A stretch of 59,319 nt of DNA from assembly GCA_005882775.1 (NCBI GenBank), contig VBDY01000129.1, positions 1-59,319 of the forward strand, written 5' to 3'. The notes beneath the pieces were generated by a model. It did not search any database and had not been told where the DNA came from. It saw nothing but the letters and a program-made list of their open reading frames with translations. The stretch's first letter is position 1. The number at the start of each line of letters is the position of its first letter. The stretch is from Chloroflexota bacterium (GTDB taxonomy: Bacteria > Chloroflexota > Dormibacteria > CF-121). This document shows, piece by piece, positions 3,867 to 11,186 of this stretch. Made by a program: the position numbers and the translations under genes.

Positions 3867-5831
3867 ATGAGCGCGCGACCCGCCGCCGGTCCACAGACGG
3901 CCCCATTCGGCTCCTGGCGCTCTCCGATCTCGTCCGACCTGATCGTCGCTGGCTCGATCGGCTTCGGACTGGTCCAGCTCGACGGTGACGACACCTACTG
4001 GGTGGAGCAGCGGCCCTCCGAAGGCGGGCGAAATGTGATCGTTCGCCGCACGGCCGACGGGCGTACCGGCGACATCACGCCGGCGGGCTTCAATGCCAGG
4101 ACCCGGGTCCACGAGTACGGAGGCGGCGCCTACGCCGTCTCGGAAGGGGTGGTGTGGTTCTCCAACTACGCCGACCAGCGACTCTACCGGCAGGACCCCG
4201 GGGCGGCGCCCCGCCCGATCAGCCCGGACGGTGACCTGCGATACGCGGACGCGGTCGTCGACCGCCCGCGGGGCCGCCTCGTATGCGTTCGCGAGGATCA
4301 CTCGCGTGGAGGAGAGGCAGTCAACACCATTGTGAGCCTCGACCTCGATGGCAAACGGCAGCCTGCAGTTCTGGTCTCAGGCAACGATTTCTACTCCTCC
4401 CCGCGGCTGAGCCCCAACGGCTCGCACCTCGCCTGGGTTACCTGGAACCACCCCAACATGCCGTGGGATGGCTGCGAGCTGTGGGTGGCCGAGCTGACCG
4501 ACGATGGCACGATCCGGGCGCCCCGCAAAGTCGCCGGCGGGGAGCGCGAGTCGGTTGCCCAACCCGAGTGGTCGCCGCAGGGAGTCCTGTATTTCATGTC
4601 AGACCGCAGCAACTGGTGGAACCCGTACCGCTGGCGCGCTCAGGGCGTTGAGCCGGTATTCGAGGTCCAGTCGGAGATGGCGGGGCCGCAGTGGGAGTTT
4701 GGCCAGTCCTACTATGGCTTCGAGTCCGAGCAGCAGATCGTCTGCCGTGTGGCCGACAACATGGTCAGCCGGCTCGCCAGGCTCGACCTCGACTCCAAAG
4801 AGCTGACCACCATCGCCACCCCGTACACGGTGATCATGCCGATGGTCAAAGTGGGGGCCCAGCGCGCGGTGTTCGTCGCGGGCTCGGCCACCGAACCGCT
4901 GGCGCTGGTCCAGGTCGCCCGCTCGACCGGGCGAGTGGAGGTGCTCCGCCGGTCATTCGAGCTTTCGCTCGACCGTTCCTACCTCTCCGTCCCACAACCG
5001 ATCGAGTTTCCCACCGAGCGCGGCAGGACGGCTCACGCCTTTTACTACCCGCCCCAAAACCCCGGCTATCAGGCACCGGCCGGCGAGCGGCCTCCGCTCA
5101 TCGTGCACGTCCACGGCGGGCCGACCGGGGCGGTATCCGATGCGCTCGACCTCCAGATCCAGTACTTCACGAGTCGCGGCCTGGCAGCCGTCGATGTCAA
5201 CTACGGCGGGAGCTCCGGCTACGGGCGCGAGTATCGGGAGCGCCTCAACGGGCAGTGGGGTGTCGTCGACGTCGAGGACTGCGTCAACGCGGCTCAGTAT
5301 CTGACCGATCGGGAGCTGGCCGATCCGAAGCGCCTGGCCATCACGGGCGGGAGTGCGGGCGGCTACACGGTGCTGCGGGCGCTGACCACCACCGAGTTCT
5401 TCACGGCGGGGGCGAGCCATTACGGGATCAGTGAGCTCGAAGTCTTCCATGGGGACACGCACAAGTTCGAATCGCGCTATGACGTGGGCCTGATCGGTCC
5501 CTGGCCGGAGGCGAGACAGACCTACCACGATCGCTCGCCGCTCTATTCAGTCGACCGCATCACGGCGCCGGTGATCCTCTTCCAGGGATTGGAAGACAGG
5601 ATCGTGCCACCGAAACAGGCAGAGATCATCGTCGAGGCGCTTCGCCGGAAGCGGCTGCCCGTCGCCTACATCGCCTTCGAAGGCGAGCAGCACGGCTTTC
5701 GGATCGCGGCGAACATCAAACGGGCCCTGGAGGGCGAGCTATTTTTCTACTCGAAGGTGTTTGGCTTCGAGCTCGCCGACCCGGTCCAGCCGGTCGCGAT
5801 CGAAAACCTGGAAGCCGCCGCTACCCGCTAA
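3867..5831 (+). CDS. S9 family prolyl oligopeptidase / acylaminoacyl-peptidase
   Basis: 654 residues with an N-terminal beta-propeller (about 30-390) and a C-terminal alpha/beta-hydrolase domain (about 400-640). Catalytic residues can be placed: Ser496 in GGSAGG, Asp577 in GLEDRIVPP and His609 in GEQHGF. The oxyanion region HVHGGPTG is also present. No signal peptide, so a cytoplasmic peptidase acting on short or acylated peptides is likely. It follows the stressosome operon after 35 nt but has its own -10 hexamer. The family is clear; exo- versus oligopeptidase specificity is not resolved. Confidence 0.92.
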   Translation: MSARPAAGPQTAPFGSWRSPISSDLIVAGSIGFGLVQLDGDDTYWVEQRPSEGGRNVIVRRTADGRTGDITPAGFNARTRVHEYGGGAYAVSEGVVWFSNYADQRLYRQDPGAAPRPISPDGDLRYADAVVDRPRGRLVCVREDHSRGGEAVNTIVSLDLDGKRQPAVLVSGNDFYSSPRLSPNGSHLAWVTWNHPNMPWDGCELWVAELTDDGTIRAPRKVAGGERESVAQPEWSPQGVLYFMSDRSNWWNPYRWRAQGVEPVFEVQSEMAGPQWEFGQSYYGFESEQQIVCRVADNMVSRLARLDLDSKELTTIATPYTVIMPMVKVGAQRAVFVAGSATEPLALVQVARSTGRVEVLRRSFELSLDRSYLSVPQPIEFPTERGRTAHAFYYPPQNPGYQAPAGERPPLIVHVHGGPTGAVSDALDLQIQYFTSRGLAAVDVNYGGSSGYGREYRERLNGQWGVVDVEDCVNAAQYLTDRELADPKRLAITGGSAGGYTVLRALTTTEFFTAGASHYGISELEVFHGDTHKFESRYDVGLIGPWPEARQTYHDRSPLYSVDRITAPVILFQGLEDRIVPPKQAEIIVEALRRKRLPVAYIAFEGEQHGFRIAANIKRALEGELFFYSKVFGFELADPVQPVAIENLEAAATR

Positions 5832-6201: not shown

Positions 6202-6645
6202 ATGCCAGATCCCAGCCGGCGGTTGCGGATCGTCAAGCCGATCACGACGCAAGTCGAGATCCTGGCCTATGCCCCGACGGAGTTCTACCACTGCCAGCAC
6301 TGCGAGATCGTCTGGGGGCAGATCGGCTTTGGCCGAAAACTCCACGCCGAGGAGCGCAAGACCGCCCTGCCGGACGACCTGCAGGCGGAGTATGCGGCCA
6401 TCTCCGGCTGGGTGCGGGAGGCCTTTGACCGATTCGGCGAGCGCCTGACTGTAAGGGTCACCGACGCGGCATCGCTGCAGGGGTTTTTCAAGGCGATCCG
6501 CTACCGGGCCCACCGGTTCCCGGCTTTCATCATCGACGGTCGCGACCGCATCATCGGCTTCGACCGCCGGCGACTTGACGCCGCCCTGCGCAGCCGCCTG
6601 GGCGATGGCGAAGGAGGTGAGAGCCTGGCCAACACGCGCGCCTGA
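6202..6645 (+). CDS. Thioredoxin-like protein with CxxC, cstA-linked
   Basis: 147 residues of unassigned function. A first strand VEILAYAP leads into C31-Q-H-C34. Later FPAFIIDG looks like the strand and cis-proline turn of a thioredoxin fold. The arrangement (strand, CxxC, helix, cis-Pro near residue 115) supports a thiol or metal-binding thioredoxin-like protein without a leader peptide. Its stop lies 20 nt before the TTG start of cstA, and it shares the promoter at 6147. A role in redox or metal control of CstA is inference only. Confidence 0.7.
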   Translation: MPDPSRRLRIVKPITTQVEILAYAPTEFYHCQHCEIVWGQIGFGRKLHAEERKTALPDDLQAEYAAISGWVREAFDRFGERLTVRVTDAASLQGFFKAIRYRAHRFPAFIIDGRDRIIGFDRRRLDAALRSRLGDGEGGESLANTRA

Positions 6646-6665: not shown

Positions 6666-8519
6666 TTGAACAACACGCTGGTCGCGATCGTCATCGGCAT
6701 TGTCGCCATCTTCGTCGGCTACAACTTCTACGCCCGGCGGATCGACCGGCTCGTCATCCAGGCAGACCCGAAGCGGGCCACGCCCGCCAAGATGTACATG
6801 GACGGCGTCGATTTCATGCCGACCAGCCGCAATGTCCTGTACGGATACCACTTCAAGTCGATCGCCGCGGCCGGCCCGATCGTTGGCGCCATCACCGCGG
6901 CGGCACTCTGGGGATGGTTTCCGAGCCTGGTCTGGCTCGTGCTGGGTGTGATGTTCATGGGGTGGGCGAGCGACTACAGTGCCATCGCGCTGTCCGTCCG
7001 CAACGACGGTAACTCCCTCTCCGCCATCGCGCATAAGCTGATTCACCCGCGCACAAGGCAGGTGCTATTCGTTTTCATCTTCTTCTACCTGCTCCTGGTG
7101 GCGGGCGCCTTCGGCACCCTGGTGGCGACCACGCTCAACAATCCGATCGTTCCTCTGGGGATCATCGCCCTGGGCGTGTTCGGCATGCTTGCCGGTCAGC
7201 TGCTCTACCGGGCAAAGCTCGACCTGATCCTCGTCACCCTGATTGCCGTGGGCGGCACGCTGCTGGCCGTGCTGCTCAACGCCAGCGCGACCGGGGCGGT
7301 GGCAACCGCCTTCAAGAATTTCAATGCCTGGCTGAACGGTTTCGCCCCGCCCAAGGGAGCCCTGATCACGGTCCTGGACCCGACCCGGCCGGCCGGCCAG
7401 CAGGACGTCGCTATCACGGTGAGCCTTGTGTTCTGGCTCCTGTTCATGTTTGCGTTCTGCTACCTTGGCGCGATCCTGCCCATCTGGCGGTACGCCCAGC
7501 CCGTGAACTACATCGGTTTCTGGATCACGGCGCTGACTGTCGTGGTGGCGGGCCTCGGAGCGATCCTCGCGTTCTGGATCAAGCCCGGTGGACATGACGT
7601 CTCGACGTTCACGATCCCGACGTTCGTAGGTTTTGGAGGGCCCACCAAGGTGCTCGCGGTTAGCGGCGCGATCCAGCCGCTGTGGCCGATGCTCTTCGTC
7701 ACCATCGCCTGCGGAGCCATCTCCGGCTGGCACGCCCTGATCGGCTCGGTCGGCACGGCTCGGCAGATCGAGAGCGAGGAGGACATGCTCCCGGTTGGCG
7801 GGGGTGCGATGTTCAGCGAGTTCACGTTGGGCCTCCTGTCGCTGTTAGCCGTTTCGGTCGCCGTCACCACCGCCGGGACAACATCGACCGCTGTTGCCAT
7901 CGGCCGGTTTGCCGACGGGATAGCGGGGTTCCTCAACGTGTTCGGGATCAGCAAGGTCTACGGCAGCGCCATCGCCCGGGCAGCCTTCGTGGTGATCGTG
8001 ATCACGGTCACGCAACTGCTCTTCCGCATCATGCGGGTGACGCTCGCGGAGTGGCTGGGCGACCGCGCGCCCATCTTCCGCAACCAGCACGTGGGCACCC
8101 TGATCAGCATGGCCGCCACGACGCTCCTGGTGGTAAGCGGCACCTGGATCTACATCTGGCAGCTGTTCGGGGCATCCAACCAGCTGATGGCTTCGCTCAG
8201 CCTGCTGGTGGTGACCGTCTGGCTGGTTGCGACGCATCGCAACGCCACCTATGCCGCGCTCCCGACCGTGTTCATGTACGTGACGACGATGGCGGCCACC
8301 CTCGTCACCGGCTACAACCTCTGGGTGACGATCTTCACCAAGCAGCTGGGCAAGGCCGGCCACGAGATCGCGGTCGTCGGCAGCTTCCTCACGGTTGCAA
8401 TCGCAGCCCTTCTCTTCGTCGCGGCGCTCCTGATTGCGGTCGACGGCGTCCGGGCGATCCGGCGATATCGGCGGCAGCCGATCGCAACCGCGCCGGAACC
8501 CGGCCGGGTGACCGCGTAG
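6666..8519 (+). CDS. cstA: Carbon starvation protein CstA (peptide/pyruvate transporter)
   Basis: 617-residue polytopic membrane protein with about 16 hydrophobic segments. It starts at TTG behind a strong AAGGAGGG. Family features include the N-terminal YNFYARRIDR region, the PTSRNVLYGYHF segment, AAGPIVGAI and GTTSTAVAIGRF. CstA proteins take up peptides or pyruvate during nutrient limitation. It is shorter than the roughly 700-residue E. coli protein but within the range of bacterial CstA. Two hairpins separate it from the small genes downstream. Confidence 0.92.
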   Translation: MNNTLVAIVIGIVAIFVGYNFYARRIDRLVIQADPKRATPAKMYMDGVDFMPTSRNVLYGYHFKSIAAAGPIVGAITAAALWGWFPSLVWLVLGVMFMGWASDYSAIALSVRNDGNSLSAIAHKLIHPRTRQVLFVFIFFYLLLVAGAFGTLVATTLNNPIVPLGIIALGVFGMLAGQLLYRAKLDLILVTLIAVGGTLLAVLLNASATGAVATAFKNFNAWLNGFAPPKGALITVLDPTRPAGQQDVAITVSLVFWLLFMFAFCYLGAILPIWRYAQPVNYIGFWITALTVVVAGLGAILAFWIKPGGHDVSTFTIPTFVGFGGPTKVLAVSGAIQPLWPMLFVTIACGAISGWHALIGSVGTARQIESEEDMLPVGGGAMFSEFTLGLLSLLAVSVAVTTAGTTSTAVAIGRFADGIAGFLNVFGISKVYGSAIARAAFVVIVITVTQLLFRIMRVTLAEWLGDRAPIFRNQHVGTLISMAATTLLVVSGTWIYIWQLFGASNQLMASLSLLVVTVWLVATHRNATYAALPTVFMYVTTMAATLVTGYNLWVTIFTKQLGKAGHEIAVVGSFLTVAIAALLFVAALLIAVDGVRAIRRYRRQPIATAPEPGRVTA

Positions 8520-8553: not shown

Positions 8554-8580
8554 GAGGGCCGGCCCGGGGGGCCGGCCCTC
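8554..8580 (+). terminator. Perfect 11-bp GC hairpin after cstA
   Basis: GAGGGCCGGCC pairs perfectly with GGCCGGCCCTC around a 5-nt loop. There is no T-run, so it may act as a Rho-type or partial terminator, an RNA-stability element or an attenuator between cstA and the mini-protein/ATPase block. Confidence 0.5.
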
Positions 8581-8589
8581 GCTGCCCAG

Positions 8590-8606
8590 CCTGGTGTTGC
8601 ACCAGG
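8590..8606 (+). promoter_or_regulatory. Leader hairpin next to the ribosome binding site of the first mini-protein gene
   Basis: CCTGGTG pairs with CACCAGG over a 3-nt loop. The 3' arm touches the AGGGAAGG ribosome binding site, so folding could limit translation of the gene at 8618. Confidence 0.4.
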
Positions 8607-8617
8607 GAAGGCGGCTT

Positions 8618-8875
8618 TTGCGCACCCTGCGCGAGGTGTTTTACGGCTTCACTGGCTTCGAGTTCGAACGCCAGGCCGCCCATTCCCGGGCGGACCTGGA
8701 GAACCTCTTCACCTTCATGATCATGGGCGAGCTGGTAGGGGTTCCCGTATTGCCGCCCTATTACGCCGTGCGTCTGGTGCCCTATCTTGTGAATACGGTA
8801 CCGGCCTGGCGGCGTCGCGTCCTCCGGGAGCGGCACCCCTTTGAACACGAGGAGTTTGACCTGCATGGAGTCTGA
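8618..8875 (+). CDS. Mini-protein 1, paralogue of the next gene, ATPase-linked
   Basis: I chose TTG at 8618 because GGGAAGG lies 6 nt before it; GTG at 8594 or 8546 would add residues. The 85-residue product carries a core shared with its neighbour: LFTFMIMGELVGVPVLPPYY, then an RL-x-PY-x-V stretch, ending in a basic WRRRVLRER. The middle 25 or so residues are hydrophobic with a PPYY kink, resembling a membrane hairpin or amphipathic anchor. It overlaps the next gene by 11 nt. I do not recognise the family. The position directly before two ArsA/GET3-like ATPases suggests it is their partner or cargo. Confidence 0.75.
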   Translation: MRTLREVFYGFTGFEFERQAAHSRADLENLFTFMIMGELVGVPVLPPYYAVRLVPYLVNTVPAWRRRVLRERHPFEHEEFDLHGV

Positions 8876-9146
8876 GAAAAAGAAGAAGCGCGGTCTGTTC
8901 GGCGTCTTCGGCACCGCCAAAGAGGTCATGTACGGGATGGCCTCCCACGACATGTCTCGCACGGCGCTGCGGACCCGGGCGAGCATGGAGCACCTCTTCA
9001 TCCTGATCACGATGGGGGACCTGCTGGGCGTCCCCATCCTGCCGCCCTACTACAGCCTGCGCCTGATGCCCTACGTCGTCCCCCAGATCAGCACCTGGAA
9101 GCGCCGTATGCTGCGCGAGCGCGATCTCACGGACGTGCTCGGCTAG
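8865..9146 (+). CDS. Mini-protein 2, paralogue of the preceding gene
   Basis: 93 residues from ATG 8865 (GGAG 10 nt upstream; TTG 8841 is an alternative). It starts with a lysine-rich stretch (EKKKKRG). It then repeats the core of mini-protein 1: EVMYG, EHLFILITMGDLLGVPILPPYY, RLMPYVV, WKRRMLRERD. Roughly half of the aligned positions are identical, so the two genes arose by duplication. The hydrophobic centre between basic ends suggests membrane association. It is followed after 10 nt by the first ATPase gene. Function unknown. Confidence 0.8.
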   Translation: MESEKKKKRGLFGVFGTAKEVMYGMASHDMSRTALRTRASMEHLFILITMGDLLGVPILPPYYSLRLMPYVVPQISTWKRRMLRERDLTDVLG

Positions 9147-9156
9147 AGGAAGCTCG

Positions 9157-10155
9157 ATGGCCATCGAGACCCCCAAGCAGACAGACCTGAAACGGGTCTT
9201 CGACCAGCACCCGGAGCGTCGCTACATCATGTTCGGGGGCAAGGGCGGGCTGGGCAAGACCACCTTCTCGGCCGCGACCGCCTATTGGTTGGCCCGCAGC
9301 GGCAAGCGGGTGCTGGTCTTCTCGGTCGACCCCCAGGCCAGCCTTTCCGACATCTTCCAGCGGGACATCTTCGGCAAGGGCCCGGTCCAGATCATGGAAA
9401 ACCTCTTCGCCCAGGAGATCGATGCCGACTCCCACATCAAGGCATACCAGCAGGAGATCCGCCAGAAGATCCTCGATATGTATGGCCTCACCGAGGTTCC
9501 GGAAGAGGTCGAGAACTACATCCAGGCGGCCAGCGCCGAGCCGGCCATGGAGGAGAGCGCCATTTTCGACGCGGTGGTCGACATCGTGGTCAAGGGCGAC
9601 TACGACTACTACATATACGACCTGGTCCCGCTAGGTCACGCGCTCTACTACCTGTCGATGGCCAAGGTCTACGACGAGTGGATCAACAAGATCACCCACC
9701 TGCGCGAGCAGATGCGGGAGTACGAGCAGGTGGCCAGCGTGATGAAGCGGCAGAAGGTGACCGAGGAGGACCAGATCCTGGCCGAGCTCCAGTACATCAA
9801 GAAGCGGATCAACACGTCCTCCCGGATCCTGACCGACCGGGTCAAGACCGCCTTCTTCTTCGTGGTCGTGCCCGAGGAGATGATCATCCTCGATACCCGC
9901 AAGGCGGCCGAGCTGTTCGCCCGCTTCGACGTTCCGCTCTCGGGATATGTGGTCAACCGGGTGCTCCCCGAGGAGCTGTCCGGCCAGAACGTGCCCGAAT
10001 ACCTGAAGAAGCGGATCACCATGCAGAAGCGCTACATGGGCGATATCCAGAGGACGCTGGGCAAGGATGTGCTCGCCTACGTGCCCGAGCTGGAGCGCGA
10101 TGTCACCGGGCTCGAGGCGATCGAGCGGCTCGCCACCATCATGTACGGCCAATGA
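9157..10155 (+). CDS. ArsA/GET3-type ATPase 1 with altered switch II
   Basis: 332 residues of the deviant-Walker ArsA/GET3 class. The P-loop is GGKGGLGKTT (27-36). Switch I is SVDPQ with Asp58, the residue equivalent to the catalytic Asp of Get3. Switch II, normally DTAPTGH, reads DLVPLGH (155-161), so the Thr-Ala pair is lost. The protein contains no cysteine, so neither the arsenite site of ArsA nor the zinc CxxC of Get3 is present. The helical insert is charged, not methionine-rich. It overlaps ATPase 2 by 4 nt (ATGA), which suggests a 1:1 complex. Confidence 0.88.
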   Translation: MAIETPKQTDLKRVFDQHPERRYIMFGGKGGLGKTTFSAATAYWLARSGKRVLVFSVDPQASLSDIFQRDIFGKGPVQIMENLFAQEIDADSHIKAYQQEIRQKILDMYGLTEVPEEVENYIQAASAEPAMEESAIFDAVVDIVVKGDYDYYIYDLVPLGHALYYLSMAKVYDEWINKITHLREQMREYEQVASVMKRQKVTEEDQILAELQYIKKRINTSSRILTDRVKTAFFFVVVPEEMIILDTRKAAELFARFDVPLSGYVVNRVLPEELSGQNVPEYLKKRITMQKRYMGDIQRTLGKDVLAYVPELERDVTGLEAIERLATIMYGQ

Positions 10156-11186
10156 GCACGGCCCCGCCGGCCGGCGCGCGTGCCGTGACCGACCCGATGG
10201 CCGGATACCTGGAGACCCATCCCGACCTGAAGTACGTGTTTTTCGGAGGCAAGGGTGGGGTGGGGAAGACGGTGATGGCGGGCGCGACCGCGGTCTGGAC
10301 GGCGGAGAAGGGGCGGCGCACGCTGCTGGCCTCGACCAACCCGGTGCACAGTCTCTCCGGGTTGCTCGGCCAGAACGTGTTCGGCAAGCACACGCCCGTC
10401 AACGGCGTCGCCAACCTGTTCGCCTACGAGATCGACACGAAAGACACGATCGAACGGTCGAAGCGCGAGATCCGGGAGAAGATCCAGTGGTTCCTCAAAT
10501 TCGCCGAGATCAGCACCAAGGCCGACGAGTTCGTCGAGTCGGCCACCATGAACCCGGCCTTCGAAGAGTCGGCCATGTTCGAGAACATGATCGACCTGAT
10601 GTTTCGCAACGAGTACGACGTGTATGTCTTCGACACCGCCCCAACCGCGAACGCTCGCCGGCTCCTGGGGATGAGCAAGGTCTACTCCCTCTGGGTCAAC
10701 AAGATGATGAAGAGCCGCGAGGAAGCGCAGAGCTTGCGCGAGATGCTCTCCTTCACCAAGAAGAAGGAGCAGGACCCACTGATGGACTACCTGGTCGAGT
10801 TCCGAGGCCGGATGGAGCACGCCCGCGAGCTCCTGACCGACGACAAGAAGACGGCATTCTTCTTCGTGACCCTGCCCGAGGCGCTGCCCATCGCCGTCAT
10901 CACCCGCTTCATCAACTGGTTCAGCGAGTTCGGAATCCCGGTCGGCGGGGTGCTGGTCAACATGCGGATCGACCGTTCGGTGGTGACGCCGGAAAGCGCT
11001 GCCTTCGTCCGCAACCGGCTAGCCATGCAGGACGAGCACATGCAGACCATCTGGGAAAAGTTCGACTCCCAGGTGCGGGCGATCGTTCCCCTCTTTGAAG
11101 ACGAGGTGCGCGGGTCCGAAATGCTCCGCCGACTGGCCCGGGAGGTCTTCAGCCCGGCGGAGGCGGCGTCGCGTAACGCAGGGTAG
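10152..11186 (+). CDS. ArsA/GET3-type ATPase 2 with Asn in place of the catalytic Asp
   Basis: 344 residues from ATG 10152, overlapping the previous stop. The P-loop is GGKGGVGKTV (32-41), with Val at the second Thr. Switch I reads STNPVHSLSG, so Asn63 replaces the Asp that activates water in Get3, and the following LSD becomes LSG. Switch II keeps DTAPT but ends AN instead of GH (161-167). No cysteine is present. Because ATPase 1 keeps the Asp but lost the Thr of switch II, the two proteins look complementary. Its 3' end overlaps the convergent gene at 11149 by 38 nt. Confidence 0.88.
   Translation: MSTAPPAGARAVTDPMAGYLETHPDLKYVFFGGKGGVGKTVMAGATAVWTAEKGRRTLLASTNPVHSLSGLLGQNVFGKHTPVNGVANLFAYEIDTKDTIERSKREIREKIQWFLKFAEISTKADEFVESATMNPAFEESAMFENMIDLMFRNEYDVYVFDTAPTANARRLLGMSKVYSLWVNKMMKSREEAQSLREMLSFTKKKEQDPLMDYLVEFRGRMEHARELLTDDKKTAFFFVTLPEALPIAVITRFINWFSEFGIPVGGVLVNMRIDRSVVTPESAAFVRNRLAMQDEHMQTIWEKFDSQVRAIVPLFEDEVRGSEMLRRLAREVFSPAEAASRNAG

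Follow-up and report, generated by a model that had tools for sequence, protein, structure and literature searches.

In a 59,319-nt stretch of DNA from a Chloroflexota bacterium (assembly GCA_005882775.1, contig VBDY01000129.1; hereafter the window), two ATPases of the ArsA/Get3 fold are encoded behind two small paralogous proteins (mini-proteins 1 and 2, also called CstX1 and CstX2) and a carbon-starvation transporter of the CstA family. The ATPases, the mini-proteins and CstA are very probably members of one CstA module, and the switch motifs of the two ATPases show an asymmetric pattern that is far beyond chance. As judged from their sequences, the ATPases are likely to form a heterodimer with one impaired site, and we give a probability of about 0.55 to the reading that this pair powers or gates CstA. 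A preliminary description of the window, made from its letters, had recognized the ATPases and the mini-proteins and overlooked CstA, which lies directly upstream and is the best guide to function. The main features of the cluster are listed below.

6666-8519, forward strand: CstA-family carbon-starvation transporter, 617 aa (PF02554, E 8.8e-94)
8618-8875, forward strand: mini-protein 1 (CstX1), paralogue of mini-protein 2 (NF041419, E 5.8e-11, 42 bits, under the cut-off)
8865-9146, forward strand: mini-protein 2 (CstX2) (NF041419, E 3.6e-9, 36 bits, under the cut-off)
9157-10155, forward strand: ATPase 1, ArsA/Get3 fold, 332 aa, the catalytically equipped subunit (PF02374, E 3.5e-72)
9328-9330, forward strand: ATPase 1 switch I Asp58 in SVDP
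9619-9639, forward strand: ATPase 1 switch II DLVPLGH, found in nearly all relatives
10152-11186, forward strand: ATPase 2, ArsA/Get3 fold, 344 aa, the degenerate subunit (PF02374, E 4.3e-67)
10338-10340, forward strand: ATPase 2 switch I Asn63 in STNP, at the position of yeast Get3 Asp57
10632-10652, forward strand: ATPase 2 switch II DTAPTAN, with GH changed to AN

Association of the ATPase pair with CstA

A homologue search for ATPase 1 in 84,980 species genomes returned 449 relatives. Among the best 80 of these 449, there are 45 from Chloroflexota, 15 from Acidobacteriota, 8 from Myxococcota/Deltaproteobacteria, 5 from Rokuibacteriota, 2 from Gemmatimonadota, 2 from Pseudomonadota and one record each named Bacteroidota, Actinomycetota and Armatimonadota, where the phylum names of metagenome-assembled genomes may be wrong. 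Gene order was counted in 95 distinct loci, each count taking the loci with enough flank for the gene in question. It turned out that ATPase 2 accompanies ATPase 1 in every locus (89 of 89) and that at least one mini-protein gene precedes ATPase 1 in every locus as well (85 of 85; two in 75 of 85), which confirms in other genomes the linkage of pair and mini-proteins described for the window. The order mini-protein, mini-protein, ATPase 1, ATPase 2 is fixed in nearly all loci, usually behind CstA. Of 70 loci, 57 have a same-strand CstA gene upstream and 60 have one at any position in the locus.

Besides, the association was scored in a sample of 301 genomes of Chloroflexota. Mini-proteins were found in 36 of them, CstA in 37 and both in 33, with ~4 expected (Fisher P 3.9e-36, uncorrected for kinship; the carriers represent 29-31 of the 178 genera). 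The coincidence also holds where CstA lies on another contig or at a distance (genomes G208, G276 and G171), so the link between CstA and the mini-proteins exceeds gene order. One genome scored as having CstA only (G191) carries a truncated mini-protein at a contig end, and a match in G295 (E 7.5e-4), where no ATPase, CstA or mini-protein was found, is probably false. In the genome of the window, the gene at 6666-8519 is the sole CstA copy.

E. coli CstA requires the small partner YbdD for pyruvate uptake (PMC5847655). We searched for YbdD as a hidden partner and rejected it: YbdD/YjiX (PF04328) was found in none of the 301 Chloroflexota genomes and in none of 16 carriers of other phyla, and the mini-proteins themselves have no PF04328 match. 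The E. coli CstA-YbdD system likewise joins a CstA permease to a small partner, but it has no ATPase, and YbdD belongs to this other family.

Asymmetric sites in the ATPase pair

ATPases 1 and 2 are 35% identical, and both match PF02374 and TIGR00345, the latter at 230 and 218 bits. Their P-loops are GKGGLGKT and GKGGVGKT, respectively, and the signature lysine, the P-loop lysine and the adenine-loop Asn are present in both subunits. The preliminary description had read Asp58 and DLVPLGH in ATPase 1 and Asn63 and DTAPTAN in ATPase 2, which is exact, and the two switch I states are indeed conserved together without exception: switch I reads S-V/T-D-P-Q-A-S in 94 of 94 distinct ATPase 1 sequences and S-T/L-N-P-V-H-S in 91 of 91 distinct ATPase 2 sequences. 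Switch II, for which one truncated ATPase 2 was left out of the scoring, is DLVPLGH in ATPase 1, or DMPPFGH in four divergent loci, and DTAPTAN or DTAAVAN in ATPase 2. In an alignment of 23 ATPase 1, 23 ATPase 2, 9 single-type (one ATPase per locus, see below), 4 Get3 and 4 ArsA domain sequences, the switch I column holds Asn in ATPase 2 (23/23) and Asp in ATPase 1 (23/23), the single types (9/9), Get3 (4/4) and ArsA (4/4), and the GH column of switch II is AN in all 23 ATPase 2 rows and GH in every other row.

The two subunits are not altered to the same extent. ATPase 1 retains D58, D155, G160 and H161, its change in switch II being confined to TAPT to LVPL, and these four residues, the signature Lys29 and the P-loop Lys34 are invariant among its relatives. 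ATPase 2 is altered in both switches, from Asp to Asn and from GH to AN. A strictly complementary degeneration of the two proteins, as first described, is thus too strong a statement. One could also suppose that both subunits are degenerate and hydrolyse poorly, so that the pair would be a nucleotide-stabilised scaffold. The unusual LVPL of ATPase 1 varies hardly more than the Asn of ATPase 2, which fits such a scaffold, but the idea is very improbable given that none of the ATPase 1 sequences has lost Asp58, Asp155, Gly160, His161, either lysine or the adenine-loop Asn.

The D57N mutant of Get3 binds ATP and does not hydrolyse it (PMC12506534). Because the lysines and the adenine-loop Asn are kept, and by analogy with this mutant, both subunits should bind ATP, with hydrolysis predicted for ATPase 1 and none for ATPase 2. 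The nearest folds of the ATPases are Get3/TRC40. For the AlphaFold2 model of ATPase 2 (pLDDT 83, pTM 0.82), the top PDB match is archaeal TRC40/Get3, with which it aligns at 31-35% identity (3zq6, 3ug7), and the fold, the deviant Walker A GKGGxGK and the adenine-loop Asn are shared. Unlike the pair, archaeal Get3/TRC40 proteins form homodimers in which both sites are complete, and they have the canonical motifs STDPAH and DTAPTGH and apparently more hydrophobic client helices; the catalytic switch I Asp expected in each Get3/TRC40 subunit is Asn in the ATPase 2 of all loci.

Neither ATPase contains a cysteine. The related single-domain proteins that were examined are not characterised by CxxC either, so its lack is not distinctive for the pair. 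The Pfam name ArsA_ATPase might suggest a true ArsA function in metalloid or anion efflux, but this is extremely unlikely, since the metalloid-binding cysteines are missing, no ars genes stand among the immediate neighbours examined, the ATPases are far from ArsA in the tree, and arsenic genes and CstA operons are not mixed (PMC2963123). An ArsA arsenic pump was rejected on the first two of these grounds.

The mini-proteins and the chaperone alternative

The mini-proteins are ~90 aa long and 50% identical over 70 aa. Their matches to NF041419 (cory-CC-star), whose curated cut-off is 80 bits, make them relatives and not members of this family. Cory-CC-star is apparently the CstX of Castillo and Saier (2010), the two being equated by size and context and not by sequence. 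A C-terminal Cys-Cys was found in none of 199 distinct mini-proteins of the paired type, against 9 of 9 cory proteins of the single type; E. coli YbdD ends in RCC, like the latter. Tandem cory genes were found across Chloroflexota.

The hydrophobic stretch of the mini-proteins is central and borderline, contains a conserved Asp/Glu and is kinked at PP, and there is no C-terminal anchor. In its AlphaFold2 model, which has moderate confidence (pLDDT 74, pTM 0.37), mini-protein 2 consists of two helices broken at LPPYY. These properties bear on a Get3-like chaperone, in which the heterodimer would take the mini-proteins, or segments of CstA, to the membrane. The preliminary description had likewise supposed that the mini-proteins are handled or inserted as clients. 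Archaeal TRC40/Get3 proteins are the closest relatives in sequence and fold, the genetic link with hydrophobic small proteins is strict, and the hydropathy of the mini-proteins comes close to the usual limit (~1.6). However, the segment that corresponds to the client-binding helices of Get3 looks less hydrophobic in both ATPases and in the single types than in Get3 (the best 15-residue window scores ~-0.4 in ATPase 1 and in ATPase 2 and +0.75 in Get3 homologues, with low model confidence in this region), the central stretch with its Asp/Glu and kink is unlike a tail anchor, and the dedicated link to CstA would be left unexplained. We therefore regard the chaperone as improbable, and the mini-proteins do not look like its clients.

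The ATPase genes share 4 nt (ATGA); this overlap, the lack of cysteines and the two paralogous mini-proteins upstream, all reported before, agree with the coordinates and sequences. The mini-protein 2 gene overlaps the end of the mini-protein 1 gene by 11 nt, and mini-protein 1 starts with TTG after AGGGAAGG, with an alternative in-frame GTG at 8594.

Further small genes were seen elsewhere. A third mini-protein gene lies directly 3' of ATPase 2 in loci L042, L048, L055, L068, L072, L073, L120, L138, L141 and L163, and extra stand-alone mini-proteins occur elsewhere in the genomes of L051, L066 and L074. A haloarchaeal arsA operon (L186, 4429-4976) encodes two small 'halo-CC-star' proteins, HcsL and HcsS, and small proteins with such Cys-Cys names may be companions of ArsA-type ATPases in general. 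A control search gave a cory match in Haloferax, and the haloarchaeal single TRC40 genes H13 and H22 have neither CstA nor cory adjacent.

Single-ATPase relatives and origin of the pair

On plasmids of Pseudochrobactrum, Paracoccus and Cytobacillus, genes annotated as carbon starvation protein A, cory-CC-star and one ArsA family ATPase follow each other in this order, with one short gene between CstA and cory on the Cytobacillus plasmid. This simple form was found in Alphaproteobacteria, Bacillota and six further Pseudomonadota genomes. All nine single-type loci (three plasmids and six Pseudomonadota genomes) have one ATPase with canonical motifs (STDPAH or STDPAHS, and DTAPTGH or near; 9/9) and CstA upstream. 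Single homologues with canonical motifs, which the preliminary description had counted as evidence against its paired model, thus do exist in other bacteria, but they represent a simpler state of the system and do not contradict the pair.

In a maximum-likelihood tree of the ATPases, where H13 and H22 serve as outgroup rows only, there are an ATPase 1 clade and an ATPase 2 clade (100/99) and a clade joining both (99/98). Since each subunit makes one clade and both together make one clade, a single duplication explains the tree, with the asymmetry apparently fixed before the pair spread. The four divergent loci are the first branch within both ATPase clades, and Get3 branches between the single types and the pair with weak support (85/70). 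In these early-branching loci (L046, L054, L064 and L071), one mini-protein lies upstream and a very divergent one farther downstream, and the ATPases read STDPQAS/DMPPFGH and SLNPVHS/DTAAVAN.

Other features of the locus

Two further features belong to the cluster.

6202-6645, forward strand: thioredoxin-like redox protein, 147 aa, HCxHCE; an accessory gene whose homologue often lies upstream of CstA
8554-8580, forward strand: perfect 12-bp hairpin in the spacer between CstA and mini-protein 1 (spacer z -4.1)

The 147-aa protein has an HCxHCE/CxHC motif and an invariant Pro107. A homologue lies directly upstream of CstA in 41 of the 64 loci with room for it and in none of the nine single-type loci. 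The protein matches no Pfam or NCBIfam family above cut-off and gives weak profile matches to thioredoxins in the PDB (E 0.03-0.07). In five Rokubacteria loci (L127, L143, L158, L160 and L161), an in-frame TGA takes the place of the first Cys codon (UxHC). Because the flanking protein sequence is conserved there, and tRNA-Sec scores over the gathering threshold in three of the five genomes, the UxHC protein is probably a selenoprotein of an undescribed family. As a speculation, the thioredoxin-like protein might make up, in redox function, for the missing CC tail.

Of the 86 spacers that follow CstA genes, 35 hold a comparable perfect hairpin; among 86 shuffled spacers, one does. The strong hairpin in the window may act as a terminator or stabilise the transcript. 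In several other loci a recurring GGAGACGC/GCGTCTCC form follows CstA, and a sister genome (L038) has a related yet different hairpin at the equivalent site. Close upstream of the cluster, at 3867-5831, a protein of the prolyl oligopeptidase family (S9) is encoded, which is relevant if CstA here imports peptides.

Comparison with known systems

Castillo and Saier (2010) found CstA associated with ArsA in 26 cases, gave the ~90-aa partner the name CstX, and proposed that ArsA homologues energise CstA with CstX as a coupler (PMC2963123). They also saw adjacent pairs of ArsA in two organisms, Pyrobaculum arsenaticum and Symbiobacterium thermophilum, two CstX proteins in the organism abbreviated Par, and single-domain ArsA proteins in which the switch I Asp is replaceable by Asn; homodimers were suggested, and asymmetric paired sites were not described (PMC2963123). 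In the present locus, CstA likewise adjoins ~90-aa CstX and single-domain ATPases of ~330 aa. Unlike the operons of 2010, the switches are invariantly asymmetric, CstX has no CC tail and a thioredoxin-like gene is often present. In our literature search the term 'cory-CC-star' was not found, no test of the energising proposal came up, and among papers naming CstA, CstX occurred only in PMC2963123. The preliminary description had called its model of an asymmetric heterodimer new. This holds in part, since the ArsA-CstX-CstA operons, the adjacent pairs and the energising proposal date from 2010 (PMC2963123). As far as our searches show, the new points are that the asymmetry within the pair is invariant, that the pair arose by one duplication, that its mini-proteins have no CC tail and YbdD is absent, that the link to CstA has been quantified, and that a redox gene is present.

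What's more, BagAB (Rv3679/Rv3680; PDB 6bs3-6bs5) likewise consists of two side-by-side Get3-like subunits, solved in the same crystal entries. Membership in BagAB was rejected, since the ATPases score 52 and 48 bits against NCBIfam equivalog cut-offs of 400 and 521 bits and are of a different lineage. We know of no link of BagAB to CstA or CstX.

A model of the module and its meaning

In the model that we prefer, CstA would be a membrane permease, by homology for pyruvate or peptides; both its substrate and the direction of transport are putative. CstX1 and CstX2 would be auxiliary CstA subunits, with a role akin to that of YbdD for E. coli CstA, and the ATPases an obligate Get3/ArsA-like heterodimer docked on CstA via the CstX pair. 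ATP at the ATPase 2 site (Asn63, GH to AN) would be retained unhydrolysed and hold the dimer together, and the ATPase 1 site (Asp58) would hydrolyse its ATP and so open the dimer, by which CstA would be driven or gated. ArsA is the textbook example of a soluble ATPase by which a secondary carrier becomes a pump. It is possible, though doubtful, that the secondary transporter CstA has been made ATP-driven or ATP-gated by a soluble Get3-type heterodimer, in which one site hydrolyses ATP and the other stays loaded with it permanently, by two specialised CstX couplers and by thioredoxin-like redox control through Cys or Sec, a layout that would parallel heterodimeric ABC transporters with unrelated parts.

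Several points weigh against an ATPase pair that powers or gates CstA. In 13 of 70 loci there is no same-strand CstA gene upstream, and the hairpin after CstA might uncouple its expression from that of the remaining genes. Bacillus subtilis, used as a control, has CstA without YbdD and without cory, and CstA therefore does not always need such partners. CstA relatives are generally counted among the secondary transporters, and ATP drive would then not be needed in principle. This last point also favours a regulatory or assembly factor, in which the pair would be a nucleotide-dependent switch (an ATP/ADP sensor or an assembly checkpoint) that turns CstA on and off without powering transport. 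One hydrolysis-impaired site suits a slow switch, and the thioredoxin-like protein of the cluster suggests regulation, but the hydrolytic residues of ATPase 1 are intact, so that work is possible too, and we consider a pure switch rather unlikely.

In conclusion, the energising of other carriers by ArsA/Get3 relatives has been an open proposal since 2010, and the paired form offers a clean test of the role of each site, because one site of the presumed dimer is altered in every genome examined. For research on the Get3 family, ATPase 2 is a natural counterpart of the Get3 D57N mutant. Besides, the module suggests a route of CstA control in lineages that lack YbdD, among them Chloroflexota and Acidobacteriota.

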